Source: Salinibacter grassmerensis (GTDB lineage Bacteria > Bacteroidota > Rhodothermia > Rhodothermales > Salinibacteraceae). From it: a stretch of 64,000 bases of DNA. The stretch spans positions 780,818-844,817 of the forward strand of contig NZ_CAMTTF010000001.1 in NCBI RefSeq assembly GCF_947077765.1, in the 5' to 3' direction. The position numbers and the translations under genes were made by a program. Positions 42,396 through 51,005 of the stretch are shown here, piece by piece (position 1 is the first letter of the stretch; every line of letters begins with the position of its first letter). Under the pieces are notes generated by a model. It saw nothing but the letters and a program-made list of their open reading frames with translations. It had not been told where the DNA came from and ran no database searches.

Positions 42396-45300
42396 CTATT
42401 TCGGCTCAGGGAATCGGACTGTGAAGTGGCTTCCCTCGCCCTTCTCGGTCTCCACGTTGATGGACCCGCCCATCTGGTCGATGGCTTTCTTGGTGACGGT
42501 CAAGCCAAGCCCAGTGCCCTCGTACTCCCGACCGAGCCCCTCGGACTCCTGGCGGAACGGATCGAAGAGGGTCTCGACCATCCCCTGATCCATGCCGATC
42601 CCGGTGTCCTCCACGTCCAAAACCGCCTGCTCCGCCTCCCGAGAAATTCGGACCCGCACCTCTCCGTCGTTGGTGTATTTGATCGCGTTGGAGATGAGGT
42701 TCTGAAGTACGATTTGCACGCCGCCCTCATCCGCCTGGGCCCATGCGGGAGTTTCACGGGCCTCGACCCGTAGACGCAACCCCTTGTCCTCGGCTCTCGG
42801 CCGAAGCTCCTCCACGATTGTCGCCGCCTGTCCGGCAATGTCTACCGCCGTCTCTTCCAGGTCCATCTTTCCCGCCTCCAGCTTCGAGAGGTTGAGGACC
42901 CCATCGAGCGTGCTCAGAAGCCGGCGGCCGCTCTTCCCGATAAGGTCGGCGAAACGAAGGGCGGACTCCTCCTCTTGGACCTCCTCCCCAATGGCGTCGG
43001 CGAAGCCGATAATCGACGTCAGCGGCGTTCGGATCTCGTGGCTCATGTTCGCGAGCATCGCCGATTTGGCCCGGCTGGCAGCCTCCGCTTCTGCCTGGGC
43101 CATCTCGGCCTCCGCCTTCGCCTCGCGGAGGGCGCCCTCTCGCTCCAAGCGGCCTAGAACGAGGGCCGCGTAGCTACTCAAAATCTCTAGTAGGCGGAGG
43201 CTGAACGGGCTGAAGCGCCCGACCTCCGTCTTGCCGACGACGACGACCCCACGCTTCCCGATCGGCACGGCCGCCGCGGAGCGCAGTTTTCCGTACTCAA
43301 TGTCGTTGTCGAGGTCGTCTATGTTCTCCGCAACGACTGTGTCTCCGGTCCGCACGGCCCGGGCCGAGAGGCTATCTCCGCTCTCTGGCTGCGGCTGGGG
43401 AGACGGTACAGAGGATTCGGATACCGTCCGCTCCGGGCGAATGAGATCGCCGTCCACGAACCCCGTGTTCTGAAGCGGATAATCGAAGATGGTCCCGAGG
43501 AGTTCGTGGATGCGACCGGACACCTCCTCTGGGCTTTCGGCCGTGAGCACCCGGCGCGTTGCCTCGTAGAGCGCCTCAATCTTGTCCTGCCGTTCCTGAA
43601 GGGCCTGCTCCTGCTTCTTGCGTTCGGTAATATCGATCCCGAAGGCCGCGACGTGCGTGACATCGCCTTCGATGTTGGTAATGGGTTTGTGGCTCCGCAT
43701 GAAGTAGCGGACCCCACTTTCCGTCTCCATCCTTTCCTCGAACTGGGTGGTTCGCTGCTCGCGGGCGGCCGTCCGAATCGCCCGGTGTCGTTGCCGCCCC
43801 AGCTCCAGGTCCAAGCCTCGTTTCCGGCAGTATTCCACGTTCGTGTGGCCGATGAGCCACTCCCGCATCTCCGGATCCTTCACGCTCTGCTTGTTGACGA
43901 ATTCGTACCGTCCATCAGGCTTGAACACCGCCAGGTCCTTCACGGCTTTCTCCAAAATCTGCTCGTAATACTGCTTTGTGCTCCGCAGCTTCCGTTCGTC
44001 CTCCTTTCGTGCCGTAATGTCCCGGACGACGCAGACAAAGCTCCCGTCCTCGAGGGCCGTGAGGGACAGTTCCTGCGAAAACGAGGAGCCGTCGGCCCGC
44101 AATCCCTGTGCCTCTCCCCGCCACTGGCCAGTCTGGCGCAGTGTTGCGAGAACCTCCTCCTCGAGGCGCTTCTCTTCTTCCTCATCGTAGCAGATGATCC
44201 AAGACTCTCCGATCAGAGACTCGGGCGCATCGTAACCGTAGATGGCTGCGTGGGCCTGATTGACGTACTGGTAGACACCGTCCGCGTCAAGGATTGCGAT
44301 CCCATCGCTCGCGGCTTCCACGGCGCTGGAACGGTGCTGGAGGGCCCGATCCTTCTGCCGGCGATCGGTGATGTCCCGAACCGTGCACACCAGTCGACCC
44401 TCGCTGGCGATTGTCAGAGACAGCGTCGCCGGGAAGGTCGTCCCGTCGGGACGGCTGCCGGTGACCTCCCCCTGCCAGTGGCCTTCTTCCTCCAGGGTTG
44501 GGAAAACCTCTTTCTCCAACCGGTCCACTTCGTCGGCGTTGTAAAGACGTCGCCACGACTCCCCGAGCAGCGCGTCAGTGCTTTCGAAGCCGTACATGTT
44601 CGCGTGGGTCTCGTCCACGTAGACGTATCGCCCGTCTTCCAGAACCGCAATGCCGTCGGCAGCCTCCTCAATCGCTTGCAGGGAGGATTCAATTGTGCGT
44701 CGGCGTGGCTCCTGCTCGGTGATGTCGCGGAAGATGCCCACCGCGAGCCGCCGCTCCTCGACCTCTACGGTCGCGGCGCTGATTTCGACGGGTATGTTCT
44801 CGCCGTCGTCGGTCACAACGTGTATGGGAGATCCGTCCTCGAACCGGCGGACTCTATCTCCTGCTCCTGGCCGACAGCACTTCTGAAATAGCCGTCGGTA
44901 CCGATCCGCCTCCCCCGTGGGATGCAGTTCAGTCTGGTGCCGCCCGGTGATCTGCTCCTTGCTGGCCCCGATGAGTTCGGCGGCCTTCTGGTTCACCTCA
45001 ACGAGCCGCCCCGTGTCAACATCGGCCAGAATCACAGGGTCGGGGGCCGCCTCCAGAAGTAAGTCGTACTTTTCCTGCGATTGGTCGGTCTCCTGCCGAT
45101 GGCGCTCCTGCTCCAGGATTCGCTCGACCGACTGGGCAAGCAGGTCCATGGCCGCTTCGTCCGTCGGGTCCGACGGCCTCGGCTCCTGCCCCCCGAAGCA
45201 AACCGTGCCGTAGAGTTGGCCCTCAACGATGATCTTGGCGCCGAGGTAGCAGGACAGGCCGTATTCCTGATAGGCCGGGTCCGTTTCCCAGCCCTGCTGT

Positions 45301-45686
45301 TCCGCGTCCTCAAGGCAAAGGACCTCGCTCTGCGTTATGGCCTTCCGGCAATAGGTTGTCGTGAGGTCCGACTCCGCACCCGCCTGAACTTTGGGATGCC
45401 CTCCGGTGGCCGCAACGACTCGGTGCGTTGACTCCGCCATATCAATGCGGGAGAGAAACCCCGCCTCAATACCGAGTCGGTCGGTGCCGGCATGAAGGAG
45501 GGCGCGGATCTTCTCCCTCGAAGACAAGCCATCGGCGTGTATGATCCGCCGGACTTGCTCTCGAAACGAAAGGCCCGGATCGTCTTCGGAGTAATCAGTG
45601 CCAATCGGGACGAGGCCCTTCGGCGTTGGCTCTGTCACTCCGTCCGATGAACCACCGGTCGACGACTGGGATGAGAATGGACTCAT
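42396..45686 (-). CDS. Multi-PAS/GAF sensor histidine kinase
   Basis: The protein has 1096 residues, is soluble, and has no membrane helix. In order: GAF (about 40-205, LHAGTDRLGIEAGFLSRID), four PAS domains (about 220-730, each ending near DITE, DITD, DITA or DITE motifs), a second GAF (about 735-865), HisKA with phospho-acceptor His in MLANMSHEIRTPLTSIIGFA, and HATPase with VLQNLISNAIKYTNDGEV and DTGIGMDQG. There is no receiver domain. It lies upstream of the chemoreceptor pseudogene on the same strand. No response regulator gene is adjacent, so it may act on a shared partner. The ATG at 45686 precedes a disordered start. Confidence 0.92.
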   Translation of the reverse strand: MSPFSSQSSTGGSSDGVTEPTPKGLVPIGTDYSEDDPGLSFREQVRRIIHADGLSSREKIRALLHAGTDRLGIEAGFLSRIDMAESTHRVVAATGGHPKVQAGAESDLTTTYCRKAITQSEVLCLEDAEQQGWETDPAYQEYGLSCYLGAKIIVEGQLYGTVCFGGQEPRPSDPTDEAAMDLLAQSVERILEQERHRQETDQSQEKYDLLLEAAPDPVILADVDTGRLVEVNQKAAELIGASKEQITGRHQTELHPTGEADRYRRLFQKCCRPGAGDRVRRFEDGSPIHVVTDDGENIPVEISAATVEVEERRLAVGIFRDITEQEPRRRTIESSLQAIEEAADGIAVLEDGRYVYVDETHANMYGFESTDALLGESWRRLYNADEVDRLEKEVFPTLEEEGHWQGEVTGSRPDGTTFPATLSLTIASEGRLVCTVRDITDRRQKDRALQHRSSAVEAASDGIAILDADGVYQYVNQAHAAIYGYDAPESLIGESWIICYDEEEEKRLEEEVLATLRQTGQWRGEAQGLRADGSSFSQELSLTALEDGSFVCVVRDITARKEDERKLRSTKQYYEQILEKAVKDLAVFKPDGRYEFVNKQSVKDPEMREWLIGHTNVEYCRKRGLDLELGRQRHRAIRTAAREQRTTQFEERMETESGVRYFMRSHKPITNIEGDVTHVAAFGIDITERKKQEQALQERQDKIEALYEATRRVLTAESPEEVSGRIHELLGTIFDYPLQNTGFVDGDLIRPERTVSESSVPSPQPQPESGDSLSARAVRTGDTVVAENIDDLDNDIEYGKLRSAAAVPIGKRGVVVVGKTEVGRFSPFSLRLLEILSSYAALVLGRLEREGALREAKAEAEMAQAEAEAASRAKSAMLANMSHEIRTPLTSIIGFADAIGEEVQEEESALRFADLIGKSGRRLLSTLDGVLNLSKLEAGKMDLEETAVDIAGQAATIVEELRPRAEDKGLRLRVEARETPAWAQADEGGVQIVLQNLISNAIKYTNDGEVRVRISREAEQAVLDVEDTGIGMDQGMVETLFDPFRQESEGLGREYEGTGLGLTVTKKAIDQMGGSINVETEKGEGSHFTVRFPEPK

Positions 45687-46411
45687 GGGCAAAGAAGAGT
45701 CTGGTAAAGTGCCCCAGGGCCCCAGGGTGCGCGCAGATCTTATCCATCCGCGCTTCAAGGCGTCTCTCATTCCGTTTTGGGGCTACACGACGTCACGTAC
45801 GCAAAGAACAACCAGGTGCTTCGGGGATCTCCTGAGTTAGATCCACCGCATCCGTGAGATCGGTGACCGGAAACCGCATTGGGCGTTTTGCTGTGACTTT
45901 TGGACTACGTTAGCTCATCTTATGGACAGTCAAAAAGAAATAGTGTTGTCCCAATTTCGTTATCTCCCCCCCCGCAAAAGTGACTCTTAACAGCCACGGC
46001 TCGGTCCATCAACGCCTGGATTGCCGCTGTGCGCAGCGCCCAGCAGTTGTGCGTAGCACCCATGATGATCATGTGGAGCGGCGTGCGGAGGCTAAAGACC
46101 AATTTCCCTAAAATAAGTACGTAGCATAAGAACTGCTTGGTCCAACTCTTTGGCACAAAAAGAAATCTAGAGAGAATTTCCGGTGGGGGTATCTGGGGCC
46201 GGGCCTGTTGGTGAAATCAGGGGCTCAGTAACTCCGAAAAGCCCTCAGGCGTGCGTCTTCTCCCTCGGTTCTTTGAGGTCCGGAGACCGTGATGTCTCCT
46301 TGGTAGCGTCTGGCATTGGCAAAAAGCAGCACCCTCGGATTAATGATTTTTCAGCGCAGGGCACGTCCGCTGAGGCGTTGCCGATCGAAGACGGTTCTGG
46401 AAAAAACACAG
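45687..46411. other. Intergenic stretch, possibly with decayed sequence
   Basis: About 725 bases between a minus-strand kinase and a plus-strand pseudogene. Composition is uneven, with A/T-rich patches near 45920-45970 and 46100-46175. A 78-codon minus-strand frame (45920-46156) is open but matches nothing recognised. No inverted terminal repeats were found. Confidence 0.35.
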
Positions 46412-48046
46412 ATGGAGCGGAAGGTCCGCCTAGAAGCCCTGTCCGACAATGTGCCCGGCGTACCCTCTGATTCTCAGGCAGGGTCGGATGGCGCGAACAG
46501 TTTGTCACGTTCATCGGGGAGATGGAGACCAGGCTTTTGAGGCTTTCCACCGGGCCGGATGAGTTCTACGAACGGTTTGCGGAGCACAGTCCGGAAAGTC
46601 ACCGAGAAAAGTTTCTTCGGTCGGCCAGGAAAGCGGTCACGAACTGCTTGCGCTGGCGACAACGATTCCTGTTTGATCGACCCAATGGATAGCGTGTCTG
46701 GCTCCTGGGGGCCGCGGAGCCCAAACTCCAAGGGGGAAGGATTTCTATTTCGCGGCGTCCTGCTCGACATCACAGAACGGGTCAACGAGGAGCGCCGCCG
46801 TGAGCAGGTGATCCGGCGTGTTCCCGATGCAATCGTTGAGGTCGACGCCGAGTGGTGCTTCACGCTCGTTAACGACCAGGCCGAGGAGAAGGCCTACGAC
46901 GTATTCATCCTGGACGTCAACCTGAAAGATCGCCGCACGGGCGTGGAGGTGCTCCAGGCGGTGCGTAGAATGCAGGAGTACGTGTCTACCCCGGCGGTGG
47001 CCTGCACGGCGTATGCCCTGGACGACCACCGCGAGCATTTCCGCCGGGCCGGATTTGACGATGTCGTGGCGAAGCCGGTGACCAAGCGGGAAATTCTCGA
47101 CGTTGTCGCCCAGCGGCTCAATGAGCCCACCTTGTCCGAGGTGGAGACCCCCGAAATATCATTGTCGGGGATTGAACTGCCCCCGATTCCGACCACGCTG
47201 ACTGAGGTCGCGAGTCTCGCGTCCAGCCCCGAGTCCCCCGACGTGGAGGCGCTCACGGGGGCGTTGCAGAAAGACGCGGTGGTGTCGCAGTGGCTCATTC
47301 GCCACATCAACTCGGCGTACTACAGCATGAGGGAGTCCATCGACACTGTCGAGCGGGCTGTGCGGTACCTCGGCTTTCAGCCGGTGTGCAACCTCGTCCT
47401 GACGAAAGTGATCGGGGAAAGCTTCTCGGGCACCGAGGGGCCGGAGGGGGAGCGGGTGCAGCAATACGTCATGAAAACGAGCGTGCTGGCGGCCTACGTC
47501 GCCCGTGAGCTGTCCAAGGAAGTCGGCTTCGACGAGCCCGGGGTAGCGTACACCGGCGGGATTTTTGCCCAGATCGGCCGCCTGGCCCTTCTCGAGGAAG
47601 AGGGGAAGACCTATATCGATCTCTGGTTTGAGGAGCAGGATCGGTCGGCGCCCTTCCGGGGCCCACCCCCGCAGGGACAAGAAATTCTGCACTTCGAAGA
47701 GGACTACGTGCAGAATGGCCTTGCCGTTGGGAAAGAGTGCGGCATCTCCGACAAATTGCAGGCTGTTCTTCGAAGCCACCACCGCCCCGGACGGACCAGC
47801 GCGGACTTCCGCCCGCTCGTCCCGGTCGTCGCGATGGCCTTCAGGGTGGCCCAACATGCGGGCGACCTCGAAGACGAGAACCCGTGGGGCGACGAGGAAG
47901 CCCTCACCCGCGACCTCCAAGAGTCCAAGGTCACACGTCACGTGGTGAGGGAGCAGTCCCTCTCCGAAGGGAGGCTGATTGCGTCGGTCGTGGACATCGT
48001 CGGGGACGCCACCGAGTTTGTCGATGAGGTCTTGGATGCGGCGTAG
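46412..48046 (+). pseudogene. Decayed PAS-receiver-HDOD signalling gene
   Basis: The 5' part is a broken PAS domain spread over frames: LEALSDNVPGV (46412 on), then FVTFIGEMETRLLRLSTGPD and RWRQRFLFDRPNG in a second frame up to a TAG at 46690-46692 and on to WLLGAAEPK, then FLFRGVLLDITERVNEERRR in a third. A second PAS starts (VPDAIVEVDAEWCF) but is cut at about 46885 and joined to the middle of a receiver (YDVFILDVNLKDRRTG, CTAYA, AKPVTKREI) that lacks its first acidic pair. An intact HDOD domain follows (about residues 200-400 of the 495-codon frame from 46559: LPPIPTTLTEVASLA, YYSMRESIDTVERAVRYLGF). A hybrid sensor gene seems to have lost its kinase core. The HDOD part may still be expressed. 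Confidence 0.8.
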
Positions 48047-48137: not shown

Positions 48138-50615
48138 TTAAGACGAGGGACCAGCGGGGGCCGGCCGTTGGGCGCTGAGTTGCAGCACCAGTCGTCGCGT
48201 ACTAGTGAGGAGGTCGGATTCGAGAATGACGTTGCGGGCTGGAAGGCCCAGTTCGCCGAGGCGGGCCGTCACGTCGGTGCCGTTGGTGTGCTGCGTCGCC
48301 ACGGCGAGCAGGTGCTCGGAGTCGATCCGGGCCTCGTCCACGAGCCAACGCGCAATGCGGAGGGCCTGCGATGGGGCGGAGGGGTCGACGTGAAGCACGA
48401 GGTCGCGCACCTCGCCTAGGCGGCCCCGAAGGTCTTTCAGTGTGGCGGCGCTGCAGGAGCGGACGTCGAAGTGGGCAACCACCTTCTCGTCGTGCTCCAG
48501 GTAGCGGGCGAGGCCCTCCTGTGCCCGGGGCGTCTGCTCGACGACCAGGATGGGATGGCGGTCGGCGTCGGGGCGCGGGACGGGGGGGAACGTGTGGGCC
48601 ACGTACTCTTCCAGCGCCACGTCGTAAAGAAAGTCGGCCACCTGTTCGGGGAAGGAGCCCTCATCGGTGTGCCAGTCGGACTGGAACGGGTTCATGAGGC
48701 AGGTGCGGAGGAGGGTGAGCGACGCGCCGCGCTCGGCGGCCTCCCGCACTACATCTGCGGGCAGCAGATCCTTCAGGATGTGGGCGTAGTCCGCCACGTC
48801 GACCTCGGTGCGGGAGAGCAGGAAGGCGTACTGGTTGATGTCTTCCCGCCCGTCGACGGTCATCTGCTGCCAGATCCGGTTCGTGTAGTCGTTGAGGGAC
48901 GCGATGCTCTCGACGTCGGGGCCCGGGGTCACGACGAAGCAGAACGCGACCGTCTCCGGGTGGTGGAACGGGCGCAGGTCCAGTTCCCCCTCGGCGGCGG
49001 AAAAGCGCTCCGTCAGTGCCTCGAAGAGCTGCTGATTCGCCCGGATGCAGTTCTCCATGAAGCGTCCGTGCCCGTCGGGCGTGAGGGGCACCATCGCCTG
49101 CGACAGGTAGCAGCTCACGGCCACGGCGCCGGGGCGAGAGCCCTCCAGCGTCCACTGCCCCAGGAAGCCGCCGAACCCGGACTGGTCCTCATCGGCGAGG
49201 TACGGCGCCTTGTACGCGATGGCGTCGCGGACATGGTAGTCCCGGAAGAGAACGGCGCCCGCGGGGTAGGGCACGTAGCCGAACTTGTGAGGGTCGATCG
49301 TGATGGAGTCCGTCGCGGAGAGCGTCGCGAGCGCCTCCGCGTCGTCGGCGGGGAGGAGGCCGTCGGGGCCCACGAGGGCATCGTCGAGCTGGGCGGGCGG
49401 GACGAAGTCCCCGTCGTCCGTCTTCGGAAGAAGAGAGGCGAAGAAGCCCCCGAAGGCGGCGTCGCAGTGGTGCCAGAACGTGAGGCCGGCGTCGCCCACT
49501 TCTCGGCGCACGGCCTCAATCTCATGCAGCGGGTCGATGGCCCCCTCCTCCGTGGTGCCCACGATGGAGACGACCCCGAGCACCGGCTGCTGATTCTCGA
49601 TGCACTCGTGAAGCCGCTCGCGCAGCGCGTCGGTATCGAGACGGATGCGGTCGTCCACGGGAATCGTCTCCAGCGCGTCGGCCCCGAGGCCCACCACGTC
49701 CATGTTCTTCTGCCAGCAGTAGTGGGTCGCCTGCGAGATGAACACCTTCGGCAGACGGGCCGGGTCGTCGGGAAACGCCCGGTTGTACTGGAGCAAGAAG
49801 GAGGCGAGCCCGGCCCGCCGCACGCTGGGCAATGCCTCCTGAAACGCCTCTGCCCGTTCCGGCGGCCCCTCGCGCAGGGTGGCCTTGATGCGCAGGTGCA
49901 GGTCGGTGATGGCGTCGATTGGAAGGTTCGAGAGGCGCCACGTGGACAGGGCGTCGAGGGCGGCGCGCTCGCCGATGGCGGTCGTCACCTCCAGGTCGGC
50001 AAGCGACGCGAACGCGTCGGTCTGGTGGGCGACGAGGCGGACGGCCAACGGGTAAAGCCGGATGTTGCGGGCGATCCAAAGCGTCTCCAGGTTTGCCACC
50101 GTGCCGCCGCTGCAGAGGTGCCCCCAGCTGTACGAGGGGCGCCGGGTGCGGGCGTCGCGGGGCAGGGTCTCGGGGAGAAACGTGGGGTAGCCTACCATTT
50201 CGGCAAGGGCCTTGAAGTAGGCCCGTTCCTCCCGCACCGTCTCCGGAGACACCTCCGCCACCACGTTGTTCTGGTTGTAGAGGAGCCCGGCAAAGTAGCC
50301 CACGAAGGCGGGCAGCGACGGGTCGCTCACGATGTGGGCCACCTGCCGCGGCGAGTAGAGCGGCGCCGCGCGCTTCAGCTCCGCCAAAATTTTTGAGAGC
50401 TCGTCCCGAAGCCGCGCCGACATGTCGTCGAACGCCTCGGTGCGCTTGTCCCGCTCGTCGATCAGGCGAGGGTCCCGTGGGTGAAAGTTGCGGCGCCAGA
50501 AGACGTGGTCCCGGAGCACCTCGAGGAGCAGGCGCTCCAGCTCGTCGGCGTTCTCCCCTTTTGGGCCGAGAAAGGCGGCCTTGTGGAGCGCGTCGGAGGA
50601 CGGTGGGTCGGACAT
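48138..50615 (-). CDS. PLP-dependent group II amino acid decarboxylase with extra C-terminal domain
   Basis: The protein has 825 residues. The decarboxylase fold (about 90-640) includes SSGGT-like SWGHLCSGGTVANLE, the cofactor-stacking region WHHCDAAFGG and the Schiff-base Lys444 in ITIDPHKFGYVPYPAGA. Group II members act on glutamate, aspartate, tyrosine or other acids; the substrate is not clear here. Residues 687-825 form an extra alpha/beta domain (PILVVEQTPRAQEGLARYL, DLVLHVDPSAPSQALRIARW) resembling a receiver without the usual acidic pocket. The ATG at 50615 gives MSDPPSSDALH. It is divergent from the EIIA gene. Confidence 0.88.
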   Translation of the reverse strand: MSDPPSSDALHKAAFLGPKGENADELERLLLEVLRDHVFWRRNFHPRDPRLIDERDKRTEAFDDMSARLRDELSKILAELKRAAPLYSPRQVAHIVSDPSLPAFVGYFAGLLYNQNNVVAEVSPETVREERAYFKALAEMVGYPTFLPETLPRDARTRRPSYSWGHLCSGGTVANLETLWIARNIRLYPLAVRLVAHQTDAFASLADLEVTTAIGERAALDALSTWRLSNLPIDAITDLHLRIKATLREGPPERAEAFQEALPSVRRAGLASFLLQYNRAFPDDPARLPKVFISQATHYCWQKNMDVVGLGADALETIPVDDRIRLDTDALRERLHECIENQQPVLGVVSIVGTTEEGAIDPLHEIEAVRREVGDAGLTFWHHCDAAFGGFFASLLPKTDDGDFVPPAQLDDALVGPDGLLPADDAEALATLSATDSITIDPHKFGYVPYPAGAVLFRDYHVRDAIAYKAPYLADEDQSGFGGFLGQWTLEGSRPGAVAVSCYLSQAMVPLTPDGHGRFMENCIRANQQLFEALTERFSAAEGELDLRPFHHPETVAFCFVVTPGPDVESIASLNDYTNRIWQQMTVDGREDINQYAFLLSRTEVDVADYAHILKDLLPADVVREAAERGASLTLLRTCLMNPFQSDWHTDEGSFPEQVADFLYDVALEEYVAHTFPPVPRPDADRHPILVVEQTPRAQEGLARYLEHDEKVVAHFDVRSCSAATLKDLRGRLGEVRDLVLHVDPSAPSQALRIARWLVDEARIDSEHLLAVATQHTNGTDVTARLGELGLPARNVILESDLLTSTRRLVLQLSAQRPAPAGPSS

Positions 50616-51005
50616 GGCGGGAGGGAGCTGTTGTCGAAAAGTGGGAATGATCCGTACGGGGTGCCCCGACAATCTTTTCGGTGTGGAGGATTTTCATGAA
50701 GGAAATAGGAGCCCCCACGGACGGTCGCGCAGGCCCCAGAATGAAGAGCGGAATGAGCGGTGTGATCGTGCTCGGTCCATGCGAGAAAGGAGTAAGGACC
50801 CGGTCGCGCGTCGGTACCATGGGGCCTCCACCCGATGAGATCGTGAATTCTTCGTCGCAGACGGAGACACGCCCGTACTGTGGAGCGGAACCCGGGGCGG
50901 GGGGCGAGCGAATACGTGAAATCGACGGCGTCTTCTCCTATGCTGTAACGTGCGGGGTGTCCACCTAGCCTGCGTTTTGTCTGCCTCACCGACCCGGTCG
51001 TGCGC
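50616..51005. other. Divergent intergenic region
   Basis: About 390 bases between the decarboxylase (leftward) and EIIA (rightward) genes. It should hold both promoters. No hairpin or riboswitch was recognised. Confidence 0.35.

Follow-up and report, generated by a model that had tools for sequence, protein, structure and literature searches.

A single deletion of 3.0–3.4 kb, confirmed by comparison with related genomes, joined the second PAS domain (PAS2) of one signaling gene to the middle of the receiver domain of the next in Salinibacter grassmerensis, leaving a complete HDOD domain downstream. The event lies in the stretch of 64,000 nucleotides analysed here (the window), in which all positions are counted. 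Taken as a whole, our explanation is a two-gene ancestor, a deletion at a short repeat, and a retained HDOD protein that would act without phosphorylation control, and we hold it with good confidence. The features on which the argument draws are as follows.

42,396–45,770, minus strand: divergent sensor kinase, open over 1124 amino acids, of PAS/GAF type by eye; also the neighbor in G003 and G010 (79–80% DNA identity)
45,536–46,413, no strand assigned: flank that precedes the PAS1 remnant, without a match at E 0.001 in any of the 12 other Salinibacter genomes
46,319–46,727, plus strand: decayed first PAS domain (PAS1) of an ancestral PAS histidine kinase and, weakly, the part before it, from alignment to the intact kinases of G003, G010, G006 and G002 and a protein match to the G003 kinase
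46,559–48,046, plus strand: fusion-carrying ORF, 495 amino acids counted from the first ATG
46,728–46,884, plus strand: end of PAS1, linker helix and start of PAS2 (last residues VNDQAE), in the frame of the HDOD ORF and conserved at the protein level
46,877–46,886, plus strand: deletion junction at a 10-bp repeat, from blastn and comparison with relatives
46,886–47,122, plus strand: C-terminal two thirds of the receiver, keeping Asp (FILD), Thr (ACTAYA) and Lys (AKPV) but not the first strand with its acidic pair
47,177–47,782, plus strand: complete HDOD domain (PF08668, E 1.7e-27, profile positions 1–194 of 196)
47,783–48,046, plus strand: C-terminal tail of the HDOD protein and stop codon, in gap-free alignment with the G003 and G010 protein ends
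48,138–50,672, minus strand: convergent pyridoxal-phosphate decarboxylase-like gene, named by reading its sequence; 91–93% identical in G003, G010 and G006

Among the 12 Salinibacter genomes compared with the window, four (G003, G010, G006 and G002) carry the two halves of the chimera as separate, adjacent genes on the same strand. Four of the remaining eight had no match and four had short paralogue matches only; three of the 12 comparison genomes are only 62–83% complete. The preliminary description had pointed to a PAS-kinase-receiver-HDOD gene of other strains as the parent. A parent was found in these four genomes, but as two adjacent genes, and no single-gene form was among the matches listed for the 13 genus genomes. 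Profile searches on G003, G010 and G006 identified several PAS domains, GAF, HisKA and HATPase_c in the first gene (gene 1, a kinase) and HATPase_c, receiver and HDOD in the second (gene 2). Gene 2 encodes 694–696 amino acids in these three genomes and is an open frame of 615 amino acids in G002. The window is 75, 74, 72 and 70% identical to G003, G010, G006 and G002, respectively, over the kinase part and 87, 87, 81 and 75% identical after the junction. The blastn values of 85–89.5% take in the decarboxylase gene and were set aside for identity.

Gene 2 is a degenerate kinase fused to a receiver and an HDOD domain (L028:8028-10118, L029:7800-9890, L030:4499-6583), to our eye an unusual architecture. 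At the site of the phospho-accepting His of gene 1 (MSHEVRTPL in G003), Arg stands in gene 2 of G003, G010 and G006 (LGREAETAL in G003). Its ATP-binding boxes vary, and no HisKA match was obtained in gene 2 at a limit of E 10. The kinase module of gene 2 thus looks like a pseudokinase, and gene 1 would presumably phosphorylate the gene 2 receiver, which in turn would control the HDOD domain.

The module adjoins the decarboxylase-like gene in G003, G010 and G006, the same place as in the window, and this neighbor marks the ancestral place. In G002, the module is found on the contig of L031 (G002:C10) and the decarboxylase gene on another (L087, G002:C116), with neither member in the decarboxylase flank. 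A move of the two-gene module within the genus is therefore possible. Whether other species have lost the pair from the ancestral place was also considered. Neither gene was found at E 1e-4 beside the decarboxylase gene in stretches from seven genomes, of which one of 800 bases and one of 4.8 kb are little informative, and the G002 pair lies on another contig. On the upstream side, about 78 codons at the start of the divergent kinase ORF, as called, fall within the flank at 45,536–46,413. Since no DNA like this flank was found in the relatives, the true start of the divergent kinase may be further in.

A junction near 46,885 had been proposed, and blastn together with alignment of the repeat mapped it to 46,877–46,886. 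The window matches gene 1 at 46,414–46,884 and gene 2 from 46,877 onward, and its alignments to L028, L029 and L030 overlap at 46,877–46,884. G003, G010 and G006 carry the 10-bp sequence CAGGCCGAAG at both places, with one copy in gene 1 and the other in the gene 2 receiver, and the window junction retains nine of its ten letters; G002 is without the repeat. The copies are 3404 bp apart in G003, and their spacing is about 3.4 kb in G006 and 3.0 kb in G010. For the G003 pair, two breakpoints drawn at random would land within a shared run of at least 10 bp with a probability of 6.5e-5, which is good support for a deletion at a short repeat. Moreover, the two copies are in the same codon phase, and the frames of gene 1 and gene 2 are joined without a shift.

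The four intact relatives support the earlier proposal that the kinase core and the beginning of the receiver were lost through an internal deletion, but the deletion spans two adjacent genes and the spacer between them and is not internal to one. The junction is present in one of 13 genus genomes. A junction conserved in relatives, the result that the preliminary description had set against its own reading, was not seen in the 12 others, of which three are incomplete assemblies. Relocation of the deleted DNA within the genome is unsupported. With 40 of 135 first-look candidates scored, no orthologue-like copy was found: outside the junction flanks there were only matches of 65–82% identity, the best other place reaching 72% and shorter pieces up to 82%, and one of 91% over 32 bp.

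PAS1 had been described as spread over three frames with a TAG at 46,690–46,692. Alignment to the intact kinases agrees that the TAG interrupts the ancestral frame of PAS1 as a nonsense codon and that the domain is in three pieces, but these are divided between two frames (position mod 3 is 2 for the outer pieces and 1 for the middle one). The breaks are the TAG and two small insertions, near 46,490 and near 46,727. Of the 1629 bases, all three fall within the 313 at the 5′ end (p 0.007 under a uniform distribution), and no frameshift or nonsense codon was found in the ~1.3 kb 3′ of about 46,728.

The position of these breaks bears on the order of events. It is conceivable, though we think it somewhat doubtful, that PAS1 decayed first, so that a front-shortened kinase started near PAS2 and a later deletion joined it to gene 2; such an order is compatible with our best explanation. 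The border between broken and conserved sequence indeed falls at the second insertion near 46,727 and not at the deletion junction. However, the kinase frame is open across PAS1 in all four relatives with the gene pair, and no front-truncated kinase without the deletion was seen. Under the explanation that we favor, PAS1 may have been broken either after the deletion or already before it.

The fusion ORF runs from its first ATG at 46,559; an alternative start at ATG 46,685 would yield 453 amino acids and appears to fit the conserved stretch better. No convincing in-frame start or ribosome-binding site was seen for this ORF, and the promoter-like matches (1 vs 0.5 expected) carry no information. 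Its first ~57 residues come from PAS1 DNA, translated for the most part in a frame other than that of the domain. Residues ~58 to 110 match the kinase from the end of PAS1 through the linker helix and into the first part of PAS2. As had been noted from the sequence, PAS2 is cut after VNDQAEE and the same frame runs into the receiver. The receiver remnant covers positions 35–110 of 111 in PF00072 (43.1 bits) and is not a complete domain, whereas the receiver of the G003 parent covers positions 2–110 (74.0 bits). Profile search identified neither HisKA nor HATPase_c in the window ORF at E 1, and the ORF is not a hybrid histidine kinase.

The motifs FILD, ACTAYA and AKPV are identical in the window, G003, G010 and G006, and G002 has FVLD and ACTAYS with the key residues kept. 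We take the Asp of FILD to be the phospho-acceptor and the Thr of ACTAYA and Lys of AKPV to be conserved receiver residues. The acidic pair after the first receiver strand forms the metal site. The VEDN stretch that holds this pair is present in all four parents and falls inside the deletion, and the metal site is absent from the window. The HDOD domain had been called intact, and its full-length match to PF08668 bears this out, scoring 96.7 bits against a curated cut-off of 22.9.

Constraint on the remnant was assessed by fitting codon models on five genomes with the window branch as foreground and the PAS1/PAS2 border placed at the second insertion. For the 386 codons of the gene-2 remnant taken together, the window branch had a dN/dS of 0.108 against a background of 0.092, and the value differed from 1 (2dlnL 21.8). 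Among its parts, dN/dS was 0.047 for the receiver stub and 0.071 for HDOD; the PAS2 stub gave 0.070 over 47 codons. For PAS2 and the receiver stub together it was 0.059, and a value of 0.2 was rejected (2dlnL 6.1). These window-branch values average the time before and after the deletion, and a recent deletion would give the same low values. The C-terminal tail gave 0.456, not distinguishable from background or from 1, and dN/dS of the 18-codon linker was uninformative. A tree that groups the window with G003/G010 is favored by the gene-2 data by about 24 log units, whereas the PAS1 data leave the choice undecided; the dN/dS results were unchanged under the other two trees.

PAS1 behaved differently on the window branch, with dN/dS of 0.571 vs a background of 0.178 (LRT 5.6; 1.3 against a value of 1). 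A neutral fraction of time shared by PAS1 and PAS2 plus receiver was rejected (2dlnL 6.6), and the ratio of amino-acid to silent changes in the window was 33:15 in PAS1 vs 8:18 in PAS2 plus receiver (p 0.003). However, the intact sister branch showed the same excess in PAS1, with ratios of 12:7 vs 4:14 (p 0.02). With control genomes as foreground, G006 gave an LRT of 5.3 for PAS1 in the opposite direction (lower) and a dN/dS of 0.41 for PAS2 plus receiver (LRT 3.3), and G002, whose branch is near saturation, gave an LRT of 8.9 for PAS2 plus receiver (lower). The control branches swing as much, and therefore the relaxation of PAS1 seen in substitutions (LRT 5.6) is weak on its own.

Together, these data are relevant to whether the whole remnant is a dying pseudogene, in which the deletion is recent and the HDOD domain is intact for want of time. 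Such plain decay would fit a junction found in one genome only, the already broken PAS1 and the tail dN/dS of 0.46 on the window branch, and any gene 2 promoter between the genes would have been lost. Nevertheless, we regard it as rather unlikely: there are no indels or stops in the about 1.3 kb after 46,728 against three in the preceding 313 bases, and dN/dS of the stubs and HDOD is 0.05–0.07. Selection after the deletion is likely, and on balance we lean towards the short HDOD protein still being used. Continued use is held as likely only, because the junction is known from one genome, the rates span time before the deletion and the control branches are noisy. The suggestion that a new short signaling protein had arisen is therefore compatible with the open frame past about 46,728 and the low dN/dS, but it is not proven by a junction found in a single genome.

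The course of events that we favor starts from an ancestor with a plus-strand PAS-type histidine kinase (gene 1) adjoining the pseudokinase-receiver-HDOD gene (gene 2). Deletion between the 10-bp repeats, of which gene 1 has one copy in PAS2 and gene 2 the other in its receiver, removed the remaining PAS domains, GAF, HisKA, HATPase, the intergenic space, and the degenerate kinase module and first receiver third of gene 2, with the matching codon phase of the repeats fusing the frames. A short HDOD protein would still be made, starting after the TAG or at 46,559, with PAS and receiver stubs unable to sense or take up phosphate. From what is generally known of the receiver family, ordinary phosphorylation of the chimeric receiver is unlikely because the first strand and acidic pair are lost, even though Asp, Thr and Lys are kept. 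The chimera is most likely a phosphorylation-independent HDOD effector, and its HDOD domain would act constitutively or via another input.

A bolder possibility, which we consider improbable, is that the chimera is a selected working protein in which a patched receiver controls HDOD in a new way, a new signaling domain made in one step. Here the lost first strands and helices of the receiver would be replaced by the final PAS1 strand, the linker helix and the opening strands of PAS2. The residues before the phospho-acceptor Asp number 49 in the chimera vs 42 (counted by eye). AlphaFold models from three-row alignments without the front of the parent's receiver had mean pLDDT of 43.9 and 39.8, a confidence too low to speak for or against a patched receiver. 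Finally, that an assembly error or strain mixture made the junction is hardly credible despite the short direct repeat there, given that the junction lies inside a 1.1 Mb contig, the joined DNA is diverged from all relatives, PAS1 is broken independently, and assemblers are not misled by repeats as short as 10 bp.

The closest known counterparts of an HDOD effector behind a receiver are GsmR of Xanthomonas campestris and DVU0330 of Desulfovibrio vulgaris, likewise response regulators with HDOD output, which in the excerpts of these reports are without an HD-GYP motif or phosphodiesterase activity (PMC4114195, PMC6543031). Unlike these regulators, the receiver in the window has lost the opening third of the domain and continues from a PAS stub in the same protein. 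The same excerpts describe HDOD as resembling HD-GYP without its activity and Xanthomonas HDOD proteins as affecting flagellar genes and attachment (PMC6543031, PMC4114195), and SadB, with HDOD and a YbaK-like domain, as binding c-di-GMP (PMC6543031). HDOD is also named among the outputs associated with aspartate-less receivers in the excerpted account (PMC4395418). Both those receivers and that of the window are degenerate, but the latter keeps its Asp and is without the first part of the fold, a truncation and not a substitution. Another protein, L013 (G020), is 35% identical over residues 100–420, and the receiver before its HDOD domain looks complete by eye. The Salinibacter two-gene modules (L028–L031, and the S. 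altiplanensis record L032) represent the ancestor-type arrangement, intact there and fused in the window. No description of this fusion was found in the titles and abstract openings surveyed.

Codon phase deserves separate mention. Of the maximal 10-mers shared by the G003 parent pair, 28 of 35 are in phase. Between 36 non-overlapping window ORFs of 200 amino acids or more, 2295 of 3347 shared 10-mers (69%) are in phase, and the in-phase share rises from 60% at 8 bases to 69% at 10 and 75% at 12. An in-frame join is therefore ruled out as a sign of selection. Because 10-mers shared between coding sequences are mostly in phase, these counts suggest that short-repeat deletions in GC-rich genomes would be biased to in-frame fusions.

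Fusion by deletion is an event of an ordinary kind, and this is a cleanly mapped case in which deletion at a very short repeat turns two adjacent signaling genes into one shorter gene. The in-phase bias of repeats offers a general, testable reason for in-frame fusions in GC-rich bacteria. If the protein is made, an HDOD effector can persist after the loss of its kinase and receiver input.
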